A stretch of 64,000 nt of DNA, taken from contig CABOHA010000001.1 in assembly GCA_902399975.1 (NCBI GenBank), positions 273,397 to 337,396 on the forward strand. Direction: 5' to 3'. Source of the DNA: Coriobacteriaceae bacterium (GTDB taxonomy: Bacteria; Actinomycetota; Coriobacteriia; Coriobacteriales; Coriobacteriaceae). How positions within the stretch are numbered: the stretch's first letter is position 1; every line of letters starts with the position of its first letter. The notes below the pieces were generated by a model, which saw only the letters and a program-made list of their open reading frames with translations, was not told where the DNA came from and ran no database searches. The position numbers were made by a program, and so were the translations under genes. Positions 36,849-44,533 of this stretch are shown one piece after another.

Positions 36849-36919
36849 CTTGTAGAGAAGAGTTTCCGGTAACGATAAAATAATTGGATAAGATCTGCTG
36901 GATGGCAAAAGGAGTTACT

Positions 36920-37489
36920 ATGGCGAATAGCGCTCAAAGAATTGAGATGTCGTTCGATAACATGAGAAAAATCGGAATGGTTCTTTGTGCCATGCTGGTA
37001 CTTATAGCCATCGCTACTATCGCCGTCTTTGGTTCGGCATTTATTGTTGCATGCCATAGCATTTTGAATGGCGCAGTGGTAATCGAGGGGGTCGTTGAGC
37101 TTGGTGAGGGCGGCAGCATCGCGCTTCCAAACTTGGCGCTATGGGCGGTTTTGCTCCTTGCAGGGGAGTTTACATTGTTAAGCATCAGCTTCGATGTCGC
37201 CCGTCGTCAATCGCCTTTTACTATTCGACATGCACGGATGATTGCCGTTATTGCTTGCCTATTTGCAATTAATGCTGTGATGGGCTCCCTGCAGATTGGC
37301 AGCGATTTAAAAATAATGATGGGCAATTGTATGTTGAGCTGTCGTATGAATTCCGCTCTCCTTCAGATTGGTGACTCAGGCATCACGTTGGATGTGGGAT
37401 CCATCATTGCAATGATGGTTGCTTTCGCTTTGTCGATCTTCTGGCGCTATGGGGCGCTTTTGCAGTCCCAGTCCGATGATTTGGTCTAG
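36920..37489 (+). CDS. DUF2975-type membrane protein
   Basis: 189-aa integral membrane protein with four hydrophobic segments (IGMVLCAMLVLIAIATIAVF, ALWAVLLLAGEFTLLSISFD, MIAVIACLFAINAVMGSL, IIAMMVAFALSIFWRYG). This topology and the partner HTH gene immediately downstream match the DUF2975/YozG-like pairs of Gram-positive bacteria, whose role is not established. AAAAGGAG lies 6 nt before ATG 36920. Codon use is more AT-rich than in clpC. It may sense envelope state for the adjacent regulator, but that is inference. Confidence 0.65.
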   Translation: MANSAQRIEMSFDNMRKIGMVLCAMLVLIAIATIAVFGSAFIVACHSILNGAVVIEGVVELGEGGSIALPNLALWAVLLLAGEFTLLSISFDVARRQSPFTIRHARMIAVIACLFAINAVMGSLQIGSDLKIMMGNCMLSCRMNSALLQIGDSGITLDVGSIIAMMVAFALSIFWRYGALLQSQSDDLV

Positions 37490-37499
37490 GTGATTGACC

Positions 37500-37826
37500 A
37501 TGGATTATCTCATTATTGAGGTTGAGACACTTTTGCTCAAGACCGGGAAAACAAATGCCGATCTAATAAGAGCGACTGGGCATACGCCAGCTAACATTTC
37601 TAAAATCCGTAATGCAAAAATTAAGGCTATACGTTTGAAGACATTGCTCGATATCTGTGTTGAGTTGGATTGTCAGCCGGGAGATTTGATCCGTCGCGTG
37701 AGTGAAATAGAACTTGAGGAACTTACCATCGCGCGTGCGCGGAATAAGATTTTGCAAAGACGCAATCCCGACCCCTCCGAGATATTGCCCACAGAGGTTT
37801 ACGTAGTAGATCTCTCTAAGGAATAA
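37500..37826 (+). CDS. Small Cro/CI-family HTH regulator (YozG-like)
   Basis: 108-aa DNA-binding protein. The HTH spans about residues 8-70: LLLKTGKTNADLIRATGHTP, NISKIRNAKIKAIRLKTLLD and ICVELDCQPGDLI, the last being the typical end of YozG-type domains. The C-terminal 35 residues are charged and unassigned. ATG 37500 is used because AGGTGA precedes it; a TTG at 37494 is possible. It lies 10 nt after the DUF2975 gene and 168 nt before the peptide gene, so it is a candidate regulator of the RiPP cluster. Confidence 0.72.
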   Translation: MDYLIIEVETLLLKTGKTNADLIRATGHTPANISKIRNAKIKAIRLKTLLDICVELDCQPGDLIRRVSEIELEELTIARARNKILQRRNPDPSEILPTEVYVVDLSKE

Positions 37827-37869
37827 CAAAACAGAATAAGAAGACAAGAAGACAAACACGTATGCATGC

Positions 37870-37903
37870 AAGGCCCCTACCGCAAACGATCGGTAGGAGC
37901 CTT
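37870..37903 (+). terminator. Terminator between the HTH gene and the peptide gene
   Basis: Stem AAGGCCCCTACCG/CGGTAGGAGCCTT with one mismatch and an 8-nt loop, followed by AATTTATTTG. It separates the regulator transcript from the cluster. Confidence 0.7.
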
Positions 37904-37923
37904 AATTTATTTGAAAATAGTTC

Positions 37924-37955
37924 TTGAAATCATAAGGTTATCGTTATACGATAAC
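37924..37955 (+). promoter_or_regulatory. Probable promoter and palindromic operator of the RiPP cluster
   Basis: TTGAAA (37924-37929) and TACGAT (37947-37952) are spaced by 17 nt. A perfect palindrome, GTTATCGT-TAT-ACGATAAC (37937-37955), covers the spacer and -10 box, so a bound repressor would block transcription. A further half-site ACGATAA occurs near 37971. Confidence 0.5.
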
Positions 37956-37994
37956 GAAGTATTAAAACAGACGATAAATCGAAAGGAGGTAATT

Positions 37995-38105
37995 ATGAAC
38001 TGGGTAATCGATCCGTGTAGCAACGTGCAGGGTGGCGGTGGTGGCTGCCGCAATTACCACCCGTGTTCGCGCTGTAGCTGTTTTGGCGTATATGTTCATT
38101 TCTAG
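37995..38105 (+). CDS. Cys-rich RiPP precursor peptide (36 aa)
   Basis: Very short gene with a near-ideal ribosome site (AAAGGAGGT, 5 nt before ATG 37995). The 36-residue product starts MNWVIDPC, has a run of five glycines at 13-17, then CRNYHPCSRCSCF (18-30) and an aromatic tail ending VYVHF. Cysteines are at 8, 18, 24, 27 and 29. This is the expected look of a substrate for a radical SAM/SPASM peptide maturase, and such an enzyme plus exporters follow on the same strand. The glycine run may divide leader and core. The product class (thioether-bridged sactipeptide or ranthipeptide) is inference. Confidence 0.7.
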   Translation: MNWVIDPCSNVQGGGGGCRNYHPCSRCSCFGVYVHF

Positions 38106-38145
38106 CAACGCGAACGTTAATGCTGGTTAAGACAGCAGAGGGTAA

Positions 38146-38190
38146 GCAGCGTGGTCGATAACTGCCATCCGTCGGCCGCGCTGCCTTTTT
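38146..38190 (+). terminator. Terminator-like hairpin after the peptide gene (partial read-through)
   Basis: GCAGCGTGG (38146-38154) pairs with CCGCGCTGC (38176-38184), followed by TTTTT. Placed between precursor and downstream genes, it would give high precursor mRNA and less transporter/enzyme mRNA, as in many peptide operons. Confidence 0.65.
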
Positions 38191-38207
38191 AATGAGGTTC
38201 ATGAGAC

Positions 38208-38936
38208 ATGGGTAATGCGATTTCAATCAAGGATCTATCAAAGCGCTACGGCAAAAACTGGGCGTTGTCTGATGTTTCATTTGATATAGATGAGGGCGAA
38301 GTGTGCGCTCTCGTTGGGGAGAACGGCGCGGGGAAGAGTACGTTGATTGATATTCTTCTTGGCTTGCTTAAAGCAACGAAAGGTTCAATCAGTTTTTTCG
38401 GCGAGTCTGGGAGAGCAGGTCTGGCAAGAGCACGCAGAAATATCGGATTCGTCCCCGACGGCTGTGGGGCATTCTTGAACTTAACCGGTCGAGAAAACTT
38501 GATCTCACGCTGTATCGAGTGGGGGCTGCCGAAAAGTGAAGTTAATCGAGTGCTCGCTGCCGTTGGACTAGAAAATGCGGCGGATGCATCGGTAAAACAA
38601 TACTCGCTCGGCATGAAGCGTCGTCTGGATATTGGAACGGCTCTTCTAGGCGACCCGCAACTACTCATCATGGATGAACCCATAAACGGGCTCGATCCAG
38701 TGGGTGTGATTGAGGTGCGCGATCTCCTGCTGTCGTTGAAGGACAAACGGGATAAAACGGTGCTCATTTCAAGCCATAACCTAGATGAATTGGAGAAAGT
38801 TGCGACATCTTTTGCGTTTCTCCATCAAGGCAGACTTCTCGTTAAGGAAGAAAACTCCTACAAAGACAGAAGTCTGGAAAAGCGGTTTTTGGATTTGATC
38901 GGGGAGGCAGATAATGCAACTTCTGCGACTGATTAG
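38208..38936 (+). CDS. ABC transporter ATP-binding protein (immunity/export type)
   Basis: 242-aa ATPase of the drug/bacteriocin-immunity ABC group. Motifs: GENGAGKSTLID (Walker A, about residue 39), YSLGMKRRLDIGTALLG (signature, LGMKRR instead of LSGGQ, common in this group) and LLIMDEPINGLDPVG (Walker B). TGAGG precedes ATG 38208. The stop overlaps the next gene by 23 nt. With the two ABC-2 permeases that follow it probably forms a LanFEG-like self-protection pump for the peptide, an inference from context. Confidence 0.85.
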   Translation: MGNAISIKDLSKRYGKNWALSDVSFDIDEGEVCALVGENGAGKSTLIDILLGLLKATKGSISFFGESGRAGLARARRNIGFVPDGCGAFLNLTGRENLISRCIEWGLPKSEVNRVLAAVGLENAADASVKQYSLGMKRRLDIGTALLGDPQLLIMDEPINGLDPVGVIEVRDLLLSLKDKRDKTVLISSHNLDELEKVATSFAFLHQGRLLVKEENSYKDRSLEKRFLDLIGEADNATSATD

Positions 38937-39717
38937 ATGTGAAGCCCGTCGGTTGCTCAGAAATCCAGCCTTTTTCGTGTTGTTGATCTGGGGAATTTGG
39001 ATTGTTAAAGATGTCTGTAATCCAAATATGTATGGGACTTATGGAACATCTGATTTAGGGGGAGTCGGCAAACAGATTGGTTTCTTTGCAAACATCCTCG
39101 ACAAGACTGACCCAGCTGGTTCGGCGGTTCGGACGGCACTATTCATGACCTACGAGTGGTTTTTCGTTCTAGCCGGATGCATTGTTATTTCCTGCGCCAT
39201 GGATTATCAAAGCAGGTCTTCTGAAGTGACGTATGCAAAAGGAACGGGTGTAGCAAAGGCCGTTGTCGCAAAGTGGCTTGTTCTGACGATTGCAACTTCA
39301 ACAGCGTTCAACCTGTTTTCGGGATTCACTCTCTTCAAATCTCCGCTTTGCTGCTATGTGGATGGGCGGGTGTTTCTTGATAGATACCTGCCCGTGTTGC
39401 TTTTGATTGATGCTATTTTGGCTGCATTAGTAGCTCAGTCGATGGCAGTTTTCTATTTACTTAGAAATGCACCGCTTAGCATTATGTTGGTGTTGGTCGG
39501 GACGCTGCTCGCCTCCGATGAATATACGCTGGTGGTCTTTTCCAATCACGCATCGACGCAAATTCCCTGGTGGCTCTCAGTCGGACCATACTTACGCCAT
39601 CTTGGAAATCTGTGCTTTCAAGGCCTAGCCATTAATCAGATCATTCTTTTCTCTGTTATTTGCACCGTTGTTTCGTTGCAGCTCGGGGTCATGGGAATCA
39701 AAGCGAGGAGGGGGTAG
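38914..39717 (+). CDS. ABC-2 type permease, first of two
   Basis: 267-aa membrane protein with about six hydrophobic helices (FFVLLIWGIWIVKDV, WFFVLAGCIVISCAM, VVAKWLVLTIATSTAFNLFSG, IILFSVICTVVSLQLGVMG). After the first helix comes a predicted external loop with MYGTYGTSDLGGVG. The next permease has a similar YGTSD segment in the same place, so the two are related. GGGGAGGCAG precedes ATG 38914, which lies inside the end of the ATPase gene. Confidence 0.78.
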   Translation: MQLLRLIRCEARRLLRNPAFFVLLIWGIWIVKDVCNPNMYGTYGTSDLGGVGKQIGFFANILDKTDPAGSAVRTALFMTYEWFFVLAGCIVISCAMDYQSRSSEVTYAKGTGVAKAVVAKWLVLTIATSTAFNLFSGFTLFKSPLCCYVDGRVFLDRYLPVLLLIDAILAALVAQSMAVFYLLRNAPLSIMLVLVGTLLASDEYTLVVFSNHASTQIPWWLSVGPYLRHLGNLCFQGLAINQIILFSVICTVVSLQLGVMGIKARRG

Positions 39718-39719
39718 AA

Positions 39720-40529
39720 ATGCGCTGCGAAGATATGATTAAGGCTGAAGCCTATCGAGTTATGAAGAGCAAAGCGCCTCTTCTGCTGATTGCGGCAGGT
39801 TTCGTGCTCGCATTGCTTTATTCTGTGTCTTATGAACCATGGAGAGCCTACGGAACGAGCGATTGGCTTGGCGACGGTGTTATGGGCTTCTTTCCAAACC
39901 CACAATATGGTTTTGTGGGAATTCCGGGAGACCTCGTTAAAGGCGGAGCTCGCTACCTTTCCGCTGTGGCACCGCTTGCCCATTCTCTGTTCTTTCCTAT
40001 TGTTGCTGTTCTCGTCATCGGCTATGCGTTTCGAACTCCGATAACGGGATCTCAATGGCTTGTTTCCTATGCAAGGGGAATGAAAACAGTACAGCTGTTG
40101 GTTGCAAGGACTCTTGTCTCGATTGTCACGCTTGTCGGTGGTTTTGTTCTCTTTTCGATACTCGTTGGTGTGGTCCAAAGCGCGAGTGGTATAGGAATGA
40201 CGATGGATATGATCGGAGAGTTTCTTCTTCGACTGTCTCTTGCTGCCTTGATTTGCACAACGTTATGCCTGCTGCTCGTCCTGGCCATCTCGCTCTTTGG
40301 AAATGGCGCGTTTGTTCTATCGTTCATCATCCTGCTGCTTTATTTGGGGTACGGGAATCCAAATATGCCACTGCACTTGACATGGCTGGCGACCCTTGCG
40401 TCTCCGCGACCAATTCAATTCATCGTGCCGGGGACGTTGCTGTTTGTAGCGCTGGCAACAGTCGTTCCCATTGTCATCCTCGGACTTTGTTGGGCTATCA
40501 AGGGTGCTATCAGAAAACGGAGCATATAA
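39720..40529 (+). CDS. ABC-2 type permease, second of two
   Basis: 269-aa membrane protein with about six hydrophobic helices (LLLIAAGFVLALLYSV, LFFPIVAVLVIGYAF, LVSIVTLVGGFVLFSILVG, LICTTLCLLLVLAISLFG, LLFVALATVVPIVILGLC). The loop after helix 1 has RAYGTSDWLGDG, matching the partner permease. GAGGAGGGGG precedes ATG 39720, 3 nt after the previous gene. The stop TAA is directly followed by the ATG of the radical SAM gene. Confidence 0.78.
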   Translation: MRCEDMIKAEAYRVMKSKAPLLLIAAGFVLALLYSVSYEPWRAYGTSDWLGDGVMGFFPNPQYGFVGIPGDLVKGGARYLSAVAPLAHSLFFPIVAVLVIGYAFRTPITGSQWLVSYARGMKTVQLLVARTLVSIVTLVGGFVLFSILVGVVQSASGIGMTMDMIGEFLLRLSLAALICTTLCLLLVLAISLFGNGAFVLSFIILLLYLGYGNPNMPLHLTWLATLASPRPIQFIVPGTLLFVALATVVPIVILGLCWAIKGAIRKRSI

Positions 40530-41816
40530 ATGAAAGAGTCTGAATTTAACGTTATTGAAGAGAATGATGTGAACGGTATCACTATCTACAATACCCAATC
40601 TGGTGGCGTTCTCGACCTTGACGCTGCGCACACGAATGAGCTGAATTTATATCGCAAGGGTGCCGCCGCCTTGGATGGTGATTTCGAAGAGGCCCTTAAG
40701 ATGGGTGGCATGTTGGTAGATGACGATGTTGACGAGCGGCGAATGTTGATGCTTGAGAGCTTGTCGGCAAGGTTTGCAAATGACTATTTAGGACTGACGA
40801 TTGCTCCAACGCTGGCATGCAATTTTAGGTGTCCCTACTGCTATGAAAAAGGCTGCTCGCACCCCACTATGTCAGAAGAGACAATGACGGATATCGCAGA
40901 ATTCGTGCGTTCCGGCTATCCCGGGATCAACGATCTTCACGTTGACTGGTATGGAGGCGAACCCCTACTCTGTGTGGACATGATCGAGCGACTGACAAAA
41001 GAACTGAGAGGGGCGATTAGGCCAGGCGCTACTTATTCTGCCGGAATGGTAACGAACGGATATCTCCTGACGCGAGAAATTGCTCAGAAGCTTGCTGATT
41101 GTCAGATCGGTTCGGTTCAAATCACTATTGATGGCTCAAAGAGGGATCATGATTCGCGGAGGGTCCCGGCCGACGGTCGTCCGACATATGATGCCATTAT
41201 CGACAATATAATCTCATGTGCCGATGTTCTTCAGATTACCATTCGCGTGAATGTCGATGAGTCCAATAGCAAAGAGGTCGATGCGTTGATTGACGAGCTT
41301 GACGCTAAAGGGCTTCGCGGTAAAGTCGCGATTTATCTTGCTGCGGTCGACAATGTTAACGATACTTGCTCAAATGACATTCATTGTTTTTCTCAGCGTG
41401 GATTCTCTCAAGTTGAAACGTTCTTTATGGATAAAGCTAGCGAGCGCGGATTCAACGTTATTCCGTTTACGCCGTATGAACCAGGCGTCTGCTGTGCGGT
41501 TTCCCTTAATTCGTTTGTCATCGATCCGCTTGGTAGACTTTTTAAATGTTGGGATGAGGTTGGCAAGGGCGAGTGCGCCGTTGGAAATGTTCGAGAAGGT
41601 GTGAAAGCTAATTCGAACTATTTGAAATGGATGGAGTATTTACCAAACGACCCAGTATGTGGCGAGTGTGTAATGTTTCCGGCTTGTATGGGCGGATGTC
41701 CCCACGCCGCGATGGAGGGCCAGAGAAAATGCGCGAGCGTTAAATTCAATGCCAGGCAGAGAATGCGGTTGGCTTGTAATTATCAATATTCGCATGAGGC
41801 AAATCACGATGTTTAG
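40530..41816 (+). CDS. Radical SAM/SPASM peptide maturase
   Basis: 428-aa enzyme predicted to modify the 36-aa peptide. Residues 1-85 form an N-terminal region of the type seen in RiPP maturases (GITIYNTQSGGVLDLD). The radical SAM cluster motif CNFRCPYC gives cysteines 97, 101 and 104, followed by DWYGGEPLL. The C-terminal SPASM/twitch region (about 310-415) is rich in cysteines: VCCAV, CWDEVGKGEC, CGECVMFPACMGGC and KCASV, enough for auxiliary FeS clusters. This layout matches enzymes that put thioether bonds on cysteine-rich peptides (CcpM/CLI_3235-like, by recall). The bond type cannot be read from sequence. Confidence 0.85.
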   Translation: MKESEFNVIEENDVNGITIYNTQSGGVLDLDAAHTNELNLYRKGAAALDGDFEEALKMGGMLVDDDVDERRMLMLESLSARFANDYLGLTIAPTLACNFRCPYCYEKGCSHPTMSEETMTDIAEFVRSGYPGINDLHVDWYGGEPLLCVDMIERLTKELRGAIRPGATYSAGMVTNGYLLTREIAQKLADCQIGSVQITIDGSKRDHDSRRVPADGRPTYDAIIDNIISCADVLQITIRVNVDESNSKEVDALIDELDAKGLRGKVAIYLAAVDNVNDTCSNDIHCFSQRGFSQVETFFMDKASERGFNVIPFTPYEPGVCCAVSLNSFVIDPLGRLFKCWDEVGKGECAVGNVREGVKANSNYLKWMEYLPNDPVCGECVMFPACMGGCPHAAMEGQRKCASVKFNARQRMRLACNYQYSHEANHDV

Positions 41817-43440
41817 ATTTTGGAAGATATATCTCCTCCATAGGCCAAGGCTTTATGTCTATCTGCTTCTCGATGTCTTGTCTCAGCTGTGCAGCCTTGC
41901 TGAACCATATCTGTTGGGACTGACTGTAAATGTGCTGGCGGCAAAAAATGTCCTCGGTATTAGTTTGCGGACGCTAGTCTTATGTATTTTCGCGATTGGC
42001 GTGGTCGCCATTGTGGGGTCGGTGTTGGCCTATTGGACTTCCCTAATCTATGTCGACCTTCAAGCGCATGCGGGATATCAACTTAACGCTGACACACTTG
42101 AACATGTCAAGCGTTTGCCCCGGAAGTTTTTCATCGGATTTGATGCGGGCTATTATAATCAGCAAATCAATCACGATTCAAACGACCTCATAATATTCGG
42201 AATAACATCGGCGTCAAATATCATTGGCGGTGTTGCAACGATTATCTGTTCCTTGATTATGTTGATGAATATAAACATTGCGATGGCGATTGCCTGTCTA
42301 GCCTGCATCGTTACGGGGGCAGTAGTTTATCGATTGTTTAGCGGGCTGCTGTTCAATCGAGGCTTTGAGTTTCAAGAAAAGACCGCTGCTTTCTATGGGA
42401 CTCTCCAGAGCCAGCTGGAGAGCGTCTCCTTTCTTCGTCGCCATTCATTATTTGATTTCTATTCCCTGAGGCTGCAGAAGGCTTTCGATGGTCTTTATCC
42501 AGCTATATTGGCTAACCAAAAAGCCGGATCACGGTTCGAACTTGCGAATCAGTTGATTTTTTCCTTTGCGCAGTTCTGTTTGCTCGCGATTGGAGGCTGT
42601 GAGATTGTCGCAGGTAAAATGCCGGTTGGTTTTCTGCTGACGGCATTGAGCTATTATTCGAGCGCCAATTCTGCTTTGGTGAACTTGCTTTCTTGGGGCA
42701 AAAGCTACCAGGCGAGCAAGGTGAGCGCCCAACGCCTTAAGCGCCTTTGGGCAATGGATGAAGAGGCGAACGGTTCTGTCCGCATTGGTTCTCCTGTTTC
42801 ACTTGTGTGCAAGGGCCTGTCGATTTGTCGCCCTGATACCGATCGTATCATAGATTATCCAGAGCTCATCTCGCTTAATCGAGGAGTCTTATACGGCGTG
42901 TCGGGCGCAAACGGAAGCGGGAAAAGCACGCTTCTCGATAGCATAGCTGGTCTATATCCCGATGATTGCGTTGGGACTATTGCTTATGACGAGGTTGATT
43001 TGAGCCAGATTGATTCTATAAATCTACGCTCGTATGTCGTTGGTATTGCCGAGCAAGAACCTGATATCGTTAACGGAACACTCAGAGAGAATCTGACGCT
43101 ACTCGCGGGCGATAATTGTCCAATTCTTGAAGTCGGGCGACTTGTAGACCAGTTTGGTCTGACCAAACTGGTCTCAACACTTCCCAATGGTCTTGATGGG
43201 GTGCTGGACGAGCAAAACCATAATATATCGGGTGGTGAGAAGCAGAAGATTGCGATTATTCGTGTATTGCTTAAGGACTCACCCGTCATGTTATTCGATG
43301 AACCGACGTCGGCGCTTGACGGAGCGAGTAGGTCAGCGTTCATTGATATTCTGCAACAGAAGAAAGAAGATCATATAGTGGTTGTTGTCTCGCATGATCC
43401 CGAGTTGCTTGAGGCTTGCGACGAAGTGATTGAACTGTAA
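41809..43440 (+). CDS. ABC exporter (fused TMD-NBD), probable peptide exporter
   Basis: 543-aa half-transporter with a six-helix type I ABC exporter domain (about 1-320) and an NBD with GVSGANGSGKSTLLDS (Walker A, about residue 366), NISGGEKQKIAIIR (about 473) and VMLFDEPTSALDG. There is no N-terminal C39 peptidase domain, so any leader must be cut by another protease, or the peptide leaves uncut. ATG 41809 lies 8 nt inside the radical SAM gene, showing translational coupling. It is the last gene of the cluster. Confidence 0.85.
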   Translation: MFRFWKIYLLHRPRLYVYLLLDVLSQLCSLAEPYLLGLTVNVLAAKNVLGISLRTLVLCIFAIGVVAIVGSVLAYWTSLIYVDLQAHAGYQLNADTLEHVKRLPRKFFIGFDAGYYNQQINHDSNDLIIFGITSASNIIGGVATIICSLIMLMNINIAMAIACLACIVTGAVVYRLFSGLLFNRGFEFQEKTAAFYGTLQSQLESVSFLRRHSLFDFYSLRLQKAFDGLYPAILANQKAGSRFELANQLIFSFAQFCLLAIGGCEIVAGKMPVGFLLTALSYYSSANSALVNLLSWGKSYQASKVSAQRLKRLWAMDEEANGSVRIGSPVSLVCKGLSICRPDTDRIIDYPELISLNRGVLYGVSGANGSGKSTLLDSIAGLYPDDCVGTIAYDEVDLSQIDSINLRSYVVGIAEQEPDIVNGTLRENLTLLAGDNCPILEVGRLVDQFGLTKLVSTLPNGLDGVLDEQNHNISGGEKQKIAIIRVLLKDSPVMLFDEPTSALDGASRSAFIDILQQKKEDHIVVVVSHDPELLEACDEVIEL

Positions 43441-43611
43441 AAGCTTGTGCATGGCGCTTCGTTGCGGGACTCATTGCCTGTGGATAGCGAATTGCAGCTG
43501 ATGTGGGCAGTTATCTCAAACATGTATCAGCTTCTTTTATTGACTAATCCCACAACGGCAAACCCGGTCAAACGAACGCTTCAGTACTGAGGCGTCTGTC
43601 TGTCTGACAAA

Positions 43612-43644
43612 TTGCTATACTTAATTAAGGAAAGCGTATAGCAA
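43612..43644 (+). promoter_or_regulatory. Palindromic operator upstream of the toxin-antitoxin pair
   Basis: TTGCTATAC (43612-43620) and GTATAGCAA (43636-43644) are perfect inverted copies. The left arm includes a TATACT -10-like box, so a bound antitoxin would repress the operon. The ribosome site AAAAGGAG overlaps the right edge. Confidence 0.6.
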
Positions 43645-43655
43645 AAGGAGCCAAC

Positions 43656-44015
43656 ATGTCTATGTCGATACTAGACTCACGGCCGGTTCAGATGAACGTG
43701 CGTATAGATCGCCAGCTCAAAGAGGCGGGAGACGCCGTCCTGACTCATATTGGCATGACGCCGTCACAAGCCGTTCGGACACTTTGGGAGTATCTGGTCG
43801 TTAACGGACGCATGCCCTCGAAGGGAGACGCGGCGGCTCCGGTTTCTGACGGAGTGGAGCCCCGGCGCATGGAGTCAAGGGCCGCGCAAGGCAGCCATAT
43901 CGTTCGCGATTCGTGCCTCAAATACGGCATCCCCATCCCTGAGTTCTCGGGAGACTATGACGACCTCTATGAGGAGGCCATGGCGGAGCGCTATCCCGAG
44001 TGGGTGGAACTATGA
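43656..44015 (+). CDS. RelB/DinJ-family antitoxin
   Basis: 119-aa protein. The N-terminal ribbon-helix-helix region VQMNVRIDRQLKEAGDAVL and MTPSQAVRTLWEYLVVNGRM is typical of RelB/DinJ antitoxins, which bind DNA and neutralise a toxin. The C-terminal half (about 60-119) is long and acidic at the end (GDYDDLYEEAMAERYPEWVEL region) and probably wraps the toxin. AAAAGGAG precedes ATG 43656. It overlaps the PIN gene as ATGA. RelB-type antitoxins usually pair with RelE/YafQ toxins, so a PIN partner is atypical. Confidence 0.82.
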   Translation: MSMSILDSRPVQMNVRIDRQLKEAGDAVLTHIGMTPSQAVRTLWEYLVVNGRMPSKGDAAAPVSDGVEPRRMESRAAQGSHIVRDSCLKYGIPIPEFSGDYDDLYEEAMAERYPEWVEL

Positions 44016-44533
44016 GCACAGAAGGCGTCCTCAAGCTGTTAATCGATACCAACGTATGGATGGATTATTTTTCTGGCAGGTCCGACCGTACGGCAAATGT
44101 CGTCCATCTGATCGAGATTGCCGACGCCTCGGAGCGGATTGCCCTGTTTGCCTCGTCGCTTTCGGTCAAAGACGTTTCATATCTTGTCTCGGCGGCAATC
44201 AAGCAGGAGTGCCGAAGAAAGACTGGCTCACTGAGCGATAACGCCATTGCGGCGGCAGACGAAACGGCTTGGGCATGCGTTCGACAGATGCGCGAGCTAG
44301 CCCTCATCGCCCCGGTCGGTGCAGACGAGGTCTTCGACTCCTTTGTGTTCAAGTACCGCCACAATGACTTTGAGGACGACCTGATGCTGGGCGTCGCCAA
44401 TCGCATTGATGCCGATTACGTTGTGACGGAGGACAAGAATCTTATTAAACATACCAATGGTGTATGCATTAATGTTCAACAGGCGTTGAGGTTGGTTGAA
44501 GGGTCCAACGCCCCTTCGGCACGGCCCGTCTAG
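44012..44533 (+). CDS. PIN-domain toxin (predicted ribonuclease)
   Basis: 173-aa PIN-domain protein, predicted Mg-dependent RNase toxin. Acidic active-site residues are visible: Asp in LLIDTNVWMDYFSG (about residue 12), a mid-protein Asp/Glu (SLSVKDVSYL), DFEDDLMLGVA (about 124-127) and the terminal DYVVTEDKNL (about 140-147). ATG 44012 overlaps the antitoxin stop by 4 nt. Expression should be coupled to and silenced by the upstream antitoxin. Confidence 0.85.
   Translation: MSTEGVLKLLIDTNVWMDYFSGRSDRTANVVHLIEIADASERIALFASSLSVKDVSYLVSAAIKQECRRKTGSLSDNAIAAADETAWACVRQMRELALIAPVGADEVFDSFVFKYRHNDFEDDLMLGVANRIDADYVVTEDKNLIKHTNGVCINVQQALRLVEGSNAPSARPV

Follow-up and report, generated by a model that had tools for sequence, protein, structure and literature searches.

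In the Clo7bot system (TIGR04334/TIGR04333), a radical S-adenosylmethionine (SAM) maturase is encoded after genes for Cys-rich peptides and before an ATP-binding cassette (ABC) transporter. On a Paraclostridium plasmid, nine short open reading frames (ORFs) precede the Clo7bot maturase, seven annotated as Clo7bot peptides and two as hypothetical proteins, and they start MKFIKKP (five), MKFIRKP, MKFIKKS, MKYIVKP and MRYIIKS, with seven of the nine fitting M-K-[F/Y]-I-x-K-P. SCIFF peptides, another Cys-rich group, average six Cys per 45 residues (PMC8172795). The Clo7bot plan, with a related maturase (262 bits), upstream Cys-rich peptides and a downstream ABC transporter, is also found in the DNA analyzed here, a stretch of 64,000 nucleotides from a Coriobacteriaceae bacterium, hereafter the window. 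The locus is a real cluster for a ribosomally synthesized and post-translationally modified peptide (RiPP) whose general kind is known; the leader is very short, and naturally occurring relics of an ABC-2-only type are found in related genomes.

A search with an alignment of six enzymes matched 62 of 396 Coriobacteriia genomes (cited below by G numbers) at E <= 1e-50, with 11 places scoring above 300 bits. Upstream of the enzyme at nine of these 11 highest-scoring loci lies a short gene whose product starts with the leader M-x-[W/Y]-[I/V]-x-x-P and continues in a variable Cys core. The leader reads MNWVIDP in the window and G062, MSWIVKP in G003 and G009, MEYIQKP in G019 and G061, MEWIIKP in G197 and G255, and MDWINEP and MEWITEP (two copies) in G006 and G011; because the members of each pair are close kin, the nine loci count as five distinct precursor types. 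Alignment of four precursors (A1) shows M1, W3, P7 and three Cys to be invariant, and the precursors here span 28-54 residues with two to six Cys. A conserved leader with a variable core, and linkage of precursor to maturase across genomes, are what RiPP clusters in general display, and both are seen here. Co-occurrence, the conserved leader and a predicted recognition domain in the enzyme together strongly support the RiPP system put forward in the original prediction. That prediction had named as refuting evidence an enzyme found in relatives with no Cys-rich peptide upstream, and such cases are largely missing: beyond the nine loci, one has a deviating precursor and at one none was found. 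Among 43 Collinsella genomes, eight have the enzyme (E <= 1e-40).

The genes are ordered as membrane protein, regulator, palindrome with promoter, precursor, hairpin, ABC-2 ATPase, two permeases, radical SAM/SPASM enzyme and ABC exporter. The palindrome and every element after it had been named in the original prediction, and all are present:

36851..43612, + strand: whole island, absent from this site in relatives (empty-site alignment, G018)
36920..37489, + strand: membrane protein; homologues 30-36% identical lie beside the regulator gene in G003, G009, G006, G011, G336 and others
37500..37826, + strand: Cro/C1-type helix-turn-helix (HTH) regulator (HTH_26, E 2.6e-15); 69-75% identical proteins lie beside related clusters
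37924..37952, + strand: promoter-like TTGAAA-N17-TACGAT, overlapping the operator-like repeat
37937..37955, no strand: operator-like inverted repeat GTTATCG-N5-CGATAAC, recurring in relatives
37995..38105, + strand: precursor peptide of 36 codons, leader MNWVIDP and Cys-rich core (five Cys), ribosome site AAAGGAGG
38146..38184, + strand: terminator-like hairpin separating the precursor gene from the ABC-2 genes, with CT5 after it; fold z -2.77
38208..38936, + strand: ABC-2 ATPase, probable immunity transporter; best family galliderm_ABC at 191.7 bits, below the cut-off of 309.75
38914..39717, + strand: ABC-2 permease 1, by position; Pfam ABC2_membrane_3 E 0.025, below cut-off
39720..40529, + strand: ABC-2 permease 2; no family match, conserved neighbor of the ATPase in relatives
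40530..41816, + strand: radical SAM/SPASM peptide maturase; PF04055 E 3.4e-14, SPASM TIGR04085 49.2 bits (cut-off 27), structure model pLDDT 92.2
40530..40775, + strand: predicted RiPP recognition element, residues 1-82, by structure match
40818..40841, + strand: CX3CX2C SAM-cluster motif CNFRCPYC; its three Cys are present in every one of 39 aligned proteins
41490..41732, + strand: SPASM cysteines CX13GX4C ... CX2CX5CX3C ... C, residues 321-401; seven Cys invariant in 39 of 39
41809..43440, + strand: ABC exporter with membrane and ATPase domains (PF00664 42.9 bits, PF00005 79.5 bits)

The starts of the membrane-protein and HTH genes are chosen in-frame ATG codons, and the permease assignments are based on position and homologues.

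Membership of the window's precursor in a named family was considered and rejected, with no NCBIfam match and a Pfam match at chance level only. Protein searches with two longer relatives of 42 and 54 residues returned close kin only (nine and three proteins), and the public alleles P0128, P0129, P0131 and P0132 look frame-shifted or internally deleted. Leaders were also sought blind to the enzyme in the 396 genomes, with a pattern made of ribosome site plus leader codons that does not catch the window's own precursor (GTA codon) or the tyrosine forms. It found 18 places in 16 genomes: eight precursors in six genomes, one relic in G288, and nine others. Every pattern-matching ORF of at most 60 residues with at least four Cys was either an enzyme-adjacent precursor or the G288 relic. 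At the next enzyme locus, below 300 bits, in G282 (L043), the product of a Cys-rich ORF upstream of the enzyme begins MRIIRKA. Separately, two Coriobacteriia families encode 28-residue precursors (L096:5648-5734 and L022:7436-7522) with the CX5C core C-x-V-M-x-P-C-K-R-G-L-D, possibly giving a product with a single bridge.

The enzyme carries both the CX3CX2C motif and the seven SPASM Cys expected of a radical SAM/SPASM protein. Among NCBIfam models it scores highest with TIGR04463 (282.8 bits, cut-off 525), Clo7bot (262 bits, cut-off 600) and CefB (215 bits, cut-off 600); four relatives likewise score below cut-offs, the TIGR04463 range with the window enzyme included being 243.6-307.6 bits. 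Scores for the ranthipeptide models PapB (133.3 bits, cut-off 340) and SCIFF TIGR03974 (70.5 bits, cut-off 425) and for RumMC lie far below cut-off, and the label "sactipeptide/ranthipeptide-type" given at first sight cannot be assigned. Sactipeptides carry a thioether from Cys S to an alpha-carbon, ranthipeptides one to a beta- or gamma-carbon. The claim of novelty holds for the exact family, which is unnamed; it does not extend to the large clade that contains the enzyme, which is related to the Clo7bot and TIGR04463 maturases and in which 3658 of 7100 candidate proteins match at E <= 1e-30. Judged from its sequence, the enzyme is a new subfamily of a known kind. Matches at E <= 1e-20 occur in 34 plasmid records, every one below 60% identity; four were read, and two of these four (L092, L094), scanned for a short precursor with the leader pattern, yielded none. 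Lower-scoring enzyme relatives at L044, L046 and L056 stand beside longer double-glycine precursors resembling Nif11-like ones, which indicates that the wider enzyme group serves different leaders. In one protein of 642 residues, P0033, Pfam domains for radical SAM and for the ABC ATPase occur together, a fusion of maturase and transporter part.

The best structural match of the enzyme's modeled N-terminal domain is TbiB1, a lasso-peptide recognition element. Because a RiPP recognition element is predicted for that domain, the leader of about seven residues is probably a docking signal, with M-N-W-V-I-D-P binding to it. The enzyme would then modify the core, with thioether bridges at Cys as the likeliest change, and both this chemistry and a bacteriocin activity of the product are plausible. 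A different radical linkage, such as a carbon-carbon cyclophane at aromatic residues, or epimerization, with the Cys forming disulfides, is an alternative we consider unlikely. Against it, Cys are a recurrent feature of all cores; Cys-rich peptides gave their names to the three families that score best (TIGR04463 "vs_C_rich", Clo7bot and Cys-every-fifth); and CteB, a thioether-forming enzyme, is the best structural match that also covers the N-terminal domain.

A site elsewhere in related chromosomes, locus A, flanked by an HPt-like gene and by a conserved one whose product starts MIGTRT, was read in 11 genomes. G003 has a complete cluster there, and so does G009, spread over the ends of two contigs. 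Enzyme and exporter are absent from the other nine (one read in part), and the precursor is absent from eight of these: G018, G004, G001, G059, G019, G062 (contig 46), G061 and G064 keep regulators and ABC-2 genes only, the G064 sequence ending inside the ATPase with its 3' part unseen. The ninth, G027 (72% complete), retains regulators, ABC-2 genes and an intact precursor. For G018, G004, G001, G059 and G064 the whole genome lacks an enzyme match. At seven of the eight ABC-2-only loci, the precursor's ribosome site and ATGAGC are fused to sequence found 3' of the precursor hairpin in G003; the 5' junction in G062 differs from the other seven, and the 3' junction is identical in all eight readable loci (G027 and seven others). 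These junctions suggest that sequence was lost once on the 3' side and twice on the 5' side; alleles may also have recombined with one another.

Mean dN/dS over 21 pairs of seven ABC-2-only loci was 0.12 for the ATPase, 0.28 and 0.27 for the permeases and 0.04 for the HTH gene, and the full pair gave 0.12, 0.24 and 0.28, and 0.09, respectively; values this low indicate that regulator and ABC-2 genes are maintained. In G288, from another family, ABC-2 genes (L099:7200-10225; ATPase 44% identical) stand beside a decayed precursor whose core has lost Cys, with no enzyme match at E <= 1e-50; this locus is a second relic of the ABC-2-only kind, in a distant relative. The ABC-2 transporter would confer self-immunity, and relatives without biosynthetic genes would keep it for that reason. 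Alleles that retain ABC-2 while lacking precursor, enzyme and exporter support this role, which had been proposed from the window's sequence, short of proving it. The modified product is probably secreted by the ABC exporter, whose Pfam matches include no peptidase domain.

We therefore favor, as the probable explanation, an acquired RiPP cluster with leader-docked Cys modification, export of the product and ABC-2 immunity. Several observations weigh against it. The G002 precursor deviates (MEIVVKA..., two Cys, with the same CX5C core as G197), no precursor was found within 8 kb in G336, where the contig begins 420 bases before the enzyme, and the G255 enzyme is split over two frames. With the leader pattern reversed as a control, 12 matches came up against 18, so the pattern alone is near background, and the best Foldseek E-value of the N-terminal domain is just 0.022. 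Cys vary too irregularly in number and spacing for a single shared bridge pattern to be likely, and the cluster has no leader peptidase. Three genomes of the ABC-2-only set of eight (G019, G061 and G062) have a further enzyme locus at a different place and are thus not plain non-producers, and the locus-A ATPase of G061 is truncated. The 13-17 kb read around the enzyme in G019, G061, G002 and G197 hold no close ABC-2 homologue, leaving immunity there unexplained. Finally, a close HTH homologue (at least 62% identity) occurs in 15 of 43 genomes, seven of them without the enzyme, and on G002 contig 18 and in G026 regulators stand beside a permease-like gene in another order; the regulatory module may be an independent unit.

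Some of these points suit an account in which the same cluster makes a signal or metal-binding peptide and the ABC-2 system imports or exports it or serves general stress. Ranthipeptide-like enzymes are not all tied to antibiotics, and this account gains from the four enzyme loci without a close ABC-2 homologue nearby and from the enzyme-free regulator modules, some with ABC-2 or permease-like genes. Retention of ABC-2 without precursor, enzyme or exporter, together with highly variable cores, fits an arms race better than a conserved signal, and we think the account improbable, if not negligibly so. Two further observations concern immunity. Just upstream of the G255 precursor, on the same strand, lie an ABC-2-like ATPase gene (38% identical) and membrane ORFs (L095:7190-10650), which may be an unrelated immunity transporter. 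Beside the G336 enzyme is a protein (L098:37-405) that we take to resemble an intramembrane CPBP protease, a possible alternative immunity gene.

Locus A could also be read in the opposite direction, the ABC-2-only form being ancestral, with precursor, enzyme and exporter inserted later and nothing retained after a loss. The single 3' junction in all eight readable loci agrees with this, as does the ABC-2-only form being the commoner state (eight of 11). Against it, the alleles that lack these genes still carry the ribosome site and opening codons of the precursor gene, their 5' junctions being of two kinds, and the full gene order is common to distant clusters (the window, G006/G011 and G003/G009); we regard insertion as quite unlikely and retain the reading of loss with immunity kept. 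That the short Cys-rich ORF is a chance ORF, the enzyme acting on another protein, is hardly credible: it is short and matches no family above cut-off, but its leader is shared by nine enzyme loci and by the Clo7bot precursors, it alone has at least four Cys among the window's 23 ATG ORFs of 20-60 residues preceded by a Shine-Dalgarno-like site, and 12 proteins predicted in public contigs are homologues of two relatives' precursors.

Upstream of the precursor, the membrane protein has no Pfam match and presumably resembles DUF2975. The promoter score by itself is not clearly above chance (14 promoter-like sites versus 9.2 +/- 3.0 in shuffles). The repeat, read by eye as GTTATCG-N5-C[G/A]ATAA, occupies the same position in the window and ten locus-A sequences; it was not found by eye in G006, and similar half-sites lie 5' of the membrane-protein gene. 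The HTH protein, perhaps with the membrane protein, may control the promoter through this repeat, presumably as a repressor. The hairpin, equaled in fold by two of 200 shuffles, is missing from the list of a terminator scan with a loop limit of 8; G003 (z -5.16) and G006 (z -2.49) also have a hairpin in this position. The window's hairpin would yield more precursor transcript than machinery transcript.

The original prediction placed the cluster in an AT-richer block between clpC and a toxin-antitoxin pair, and its location stands; the block starts at about 36851, taking in the two regulator genes that had been left out. These belong to an insert of 6.8 kb. At the empty site of G018, window position 36850 is joined to 43613 with 24 bases in between, and a search of 20 Collinsella genomes found 12 with clpC adjacent to the downstream flank, in the window's order, without the cluster; window 36851-43612 is therefore an insert, and its lower GC content (0.475 versus 0.598 for the rest of the window) agrees. 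The only end repeat found, direct or inverted, was the 10-base GCAAAAGGAG, located at two ribosome sites, and no integrase gene is among those assigned. Related clusters sit at other chromosomal places. A 13-kb contig piece of C. aerofaciens (NZ_JADNOH010000085.1) has the same cluster, with proteins 96-100% identical and an identical precursor, which places the window in Collinsella; a scan of genome contigs with the enzyme gave two loci from 12 stretches, this one and a distant Empedobacter enzyme. As part of the explanation we favor, the island was probably acquired horizontally. The neighboring RelB-like antitoxin and PIN-domain genes (window 43656-44533; RelB 30 bits, cut-off 22.4; PIN_3 40.6, cut-off 27) directly follow clpC in G018 and G014 (24 and 31 bases between matches), while G001 and G019 lack both pair and island there. 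The clpC spot has thus seen more than one insertion or loss.

Our literature survey of Collinsella RiPPs and related maturases, thin for subscription papers, found no description of this cluster. For a collection with C. aerofaciens among its members, one study gives a total of 907 predicted sactipeptide clusters (PMC10039858), and an automatic tool may already have flagged this one. No report was found of a shared start used by the Clo7bot, TIGR04463 or Cys-every-fifth families. One CefA protein starts MQYLVQP, and the likeness of Clo7bot and CefA starts makes the shared start seem older than the Collinsella group. The leaders found here are similar to the Clo7bot start, written M-x-[F/Y]-I-x-K-P from the nine ORFs, with W or Y and V or I at the corresponding positions; its Lys before Pro is present in some relatives only, the window having Asp. 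It is possible, although we hold the idea only tentatively, that an N-terminal code of five to seven residues (aromatic, I/V/L, x, x, P), similar to the lasso YxxP, unites Collinsella precursors, Clo7bot peptides and CefA-type proteins in a single superfamily whose leader is all but absent and may never be cleaved, and that in Collinsella it underlies a polymorphism of producers and immune non-producers across gut species, regulators and immunity genes being kept after the antibiotic is lost. If so, a very large, little characterized radical SAM group would have a testable minimal docking signal that helps to find hidden precursors, and a genus common in the human gut would offer natural alleles that either have or lack the biosynthetic genes, making competition by a modified peptide and retained immunity testable in natural strains.

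Compared with known systems, the cluster shares single features with several. The maturase scores best with the TIGR04463 family, over residues 6-412, and stays below its cut-off. SCIFF shares a Cys-rich substrate and, through its maturase CteB (5wgg/5why), a predicted fold match over residues 4-419 that includes the N-terminal domain, whereas the SCIFF model score is far too low. The PapB/freyrasin ranthipeptides likewise pair a radical SAM/SPASM enzyme with a Cys-rich peptide, but the window core has no Cys-X3-Asp pattern and the PapB model is not reached. LanFEG immunity transporters (TIGR03740) resemble the ABC-2 genes in having an ATPase with a galliderm_ABC match before two permease-like genes; here that match is below cut-off and the permeases match no NCBIfam model. 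W/Y/LxxP/L/I is described as a widespread recognition sequence in one paper (PMC12710340). The enzyme's N-terminal domain and [I/V]-x-x-P resemble the recognition elements and YxxP leaders of lasso peptides, but the product class is unrelated, and the leader here forms the extreme N-terminus and has an aromatic residue ahead of the motif. A TIGR04333 search of 21 relatives gave ten matches at E <= 1, none above cut-off, and was dropped because 12 of 14 control genomes matched too. Clo7bot remains close in plan and differs in detail: the cut-offs are missed by the maturase (262 versus 600 bits) and by the G003 precursor (9.8 versus 31), the window precursor has no match, and where the Clo7bot plasmid has nine precursors, the clusters described here have one or two, with ABC-2 and regulator genes added.

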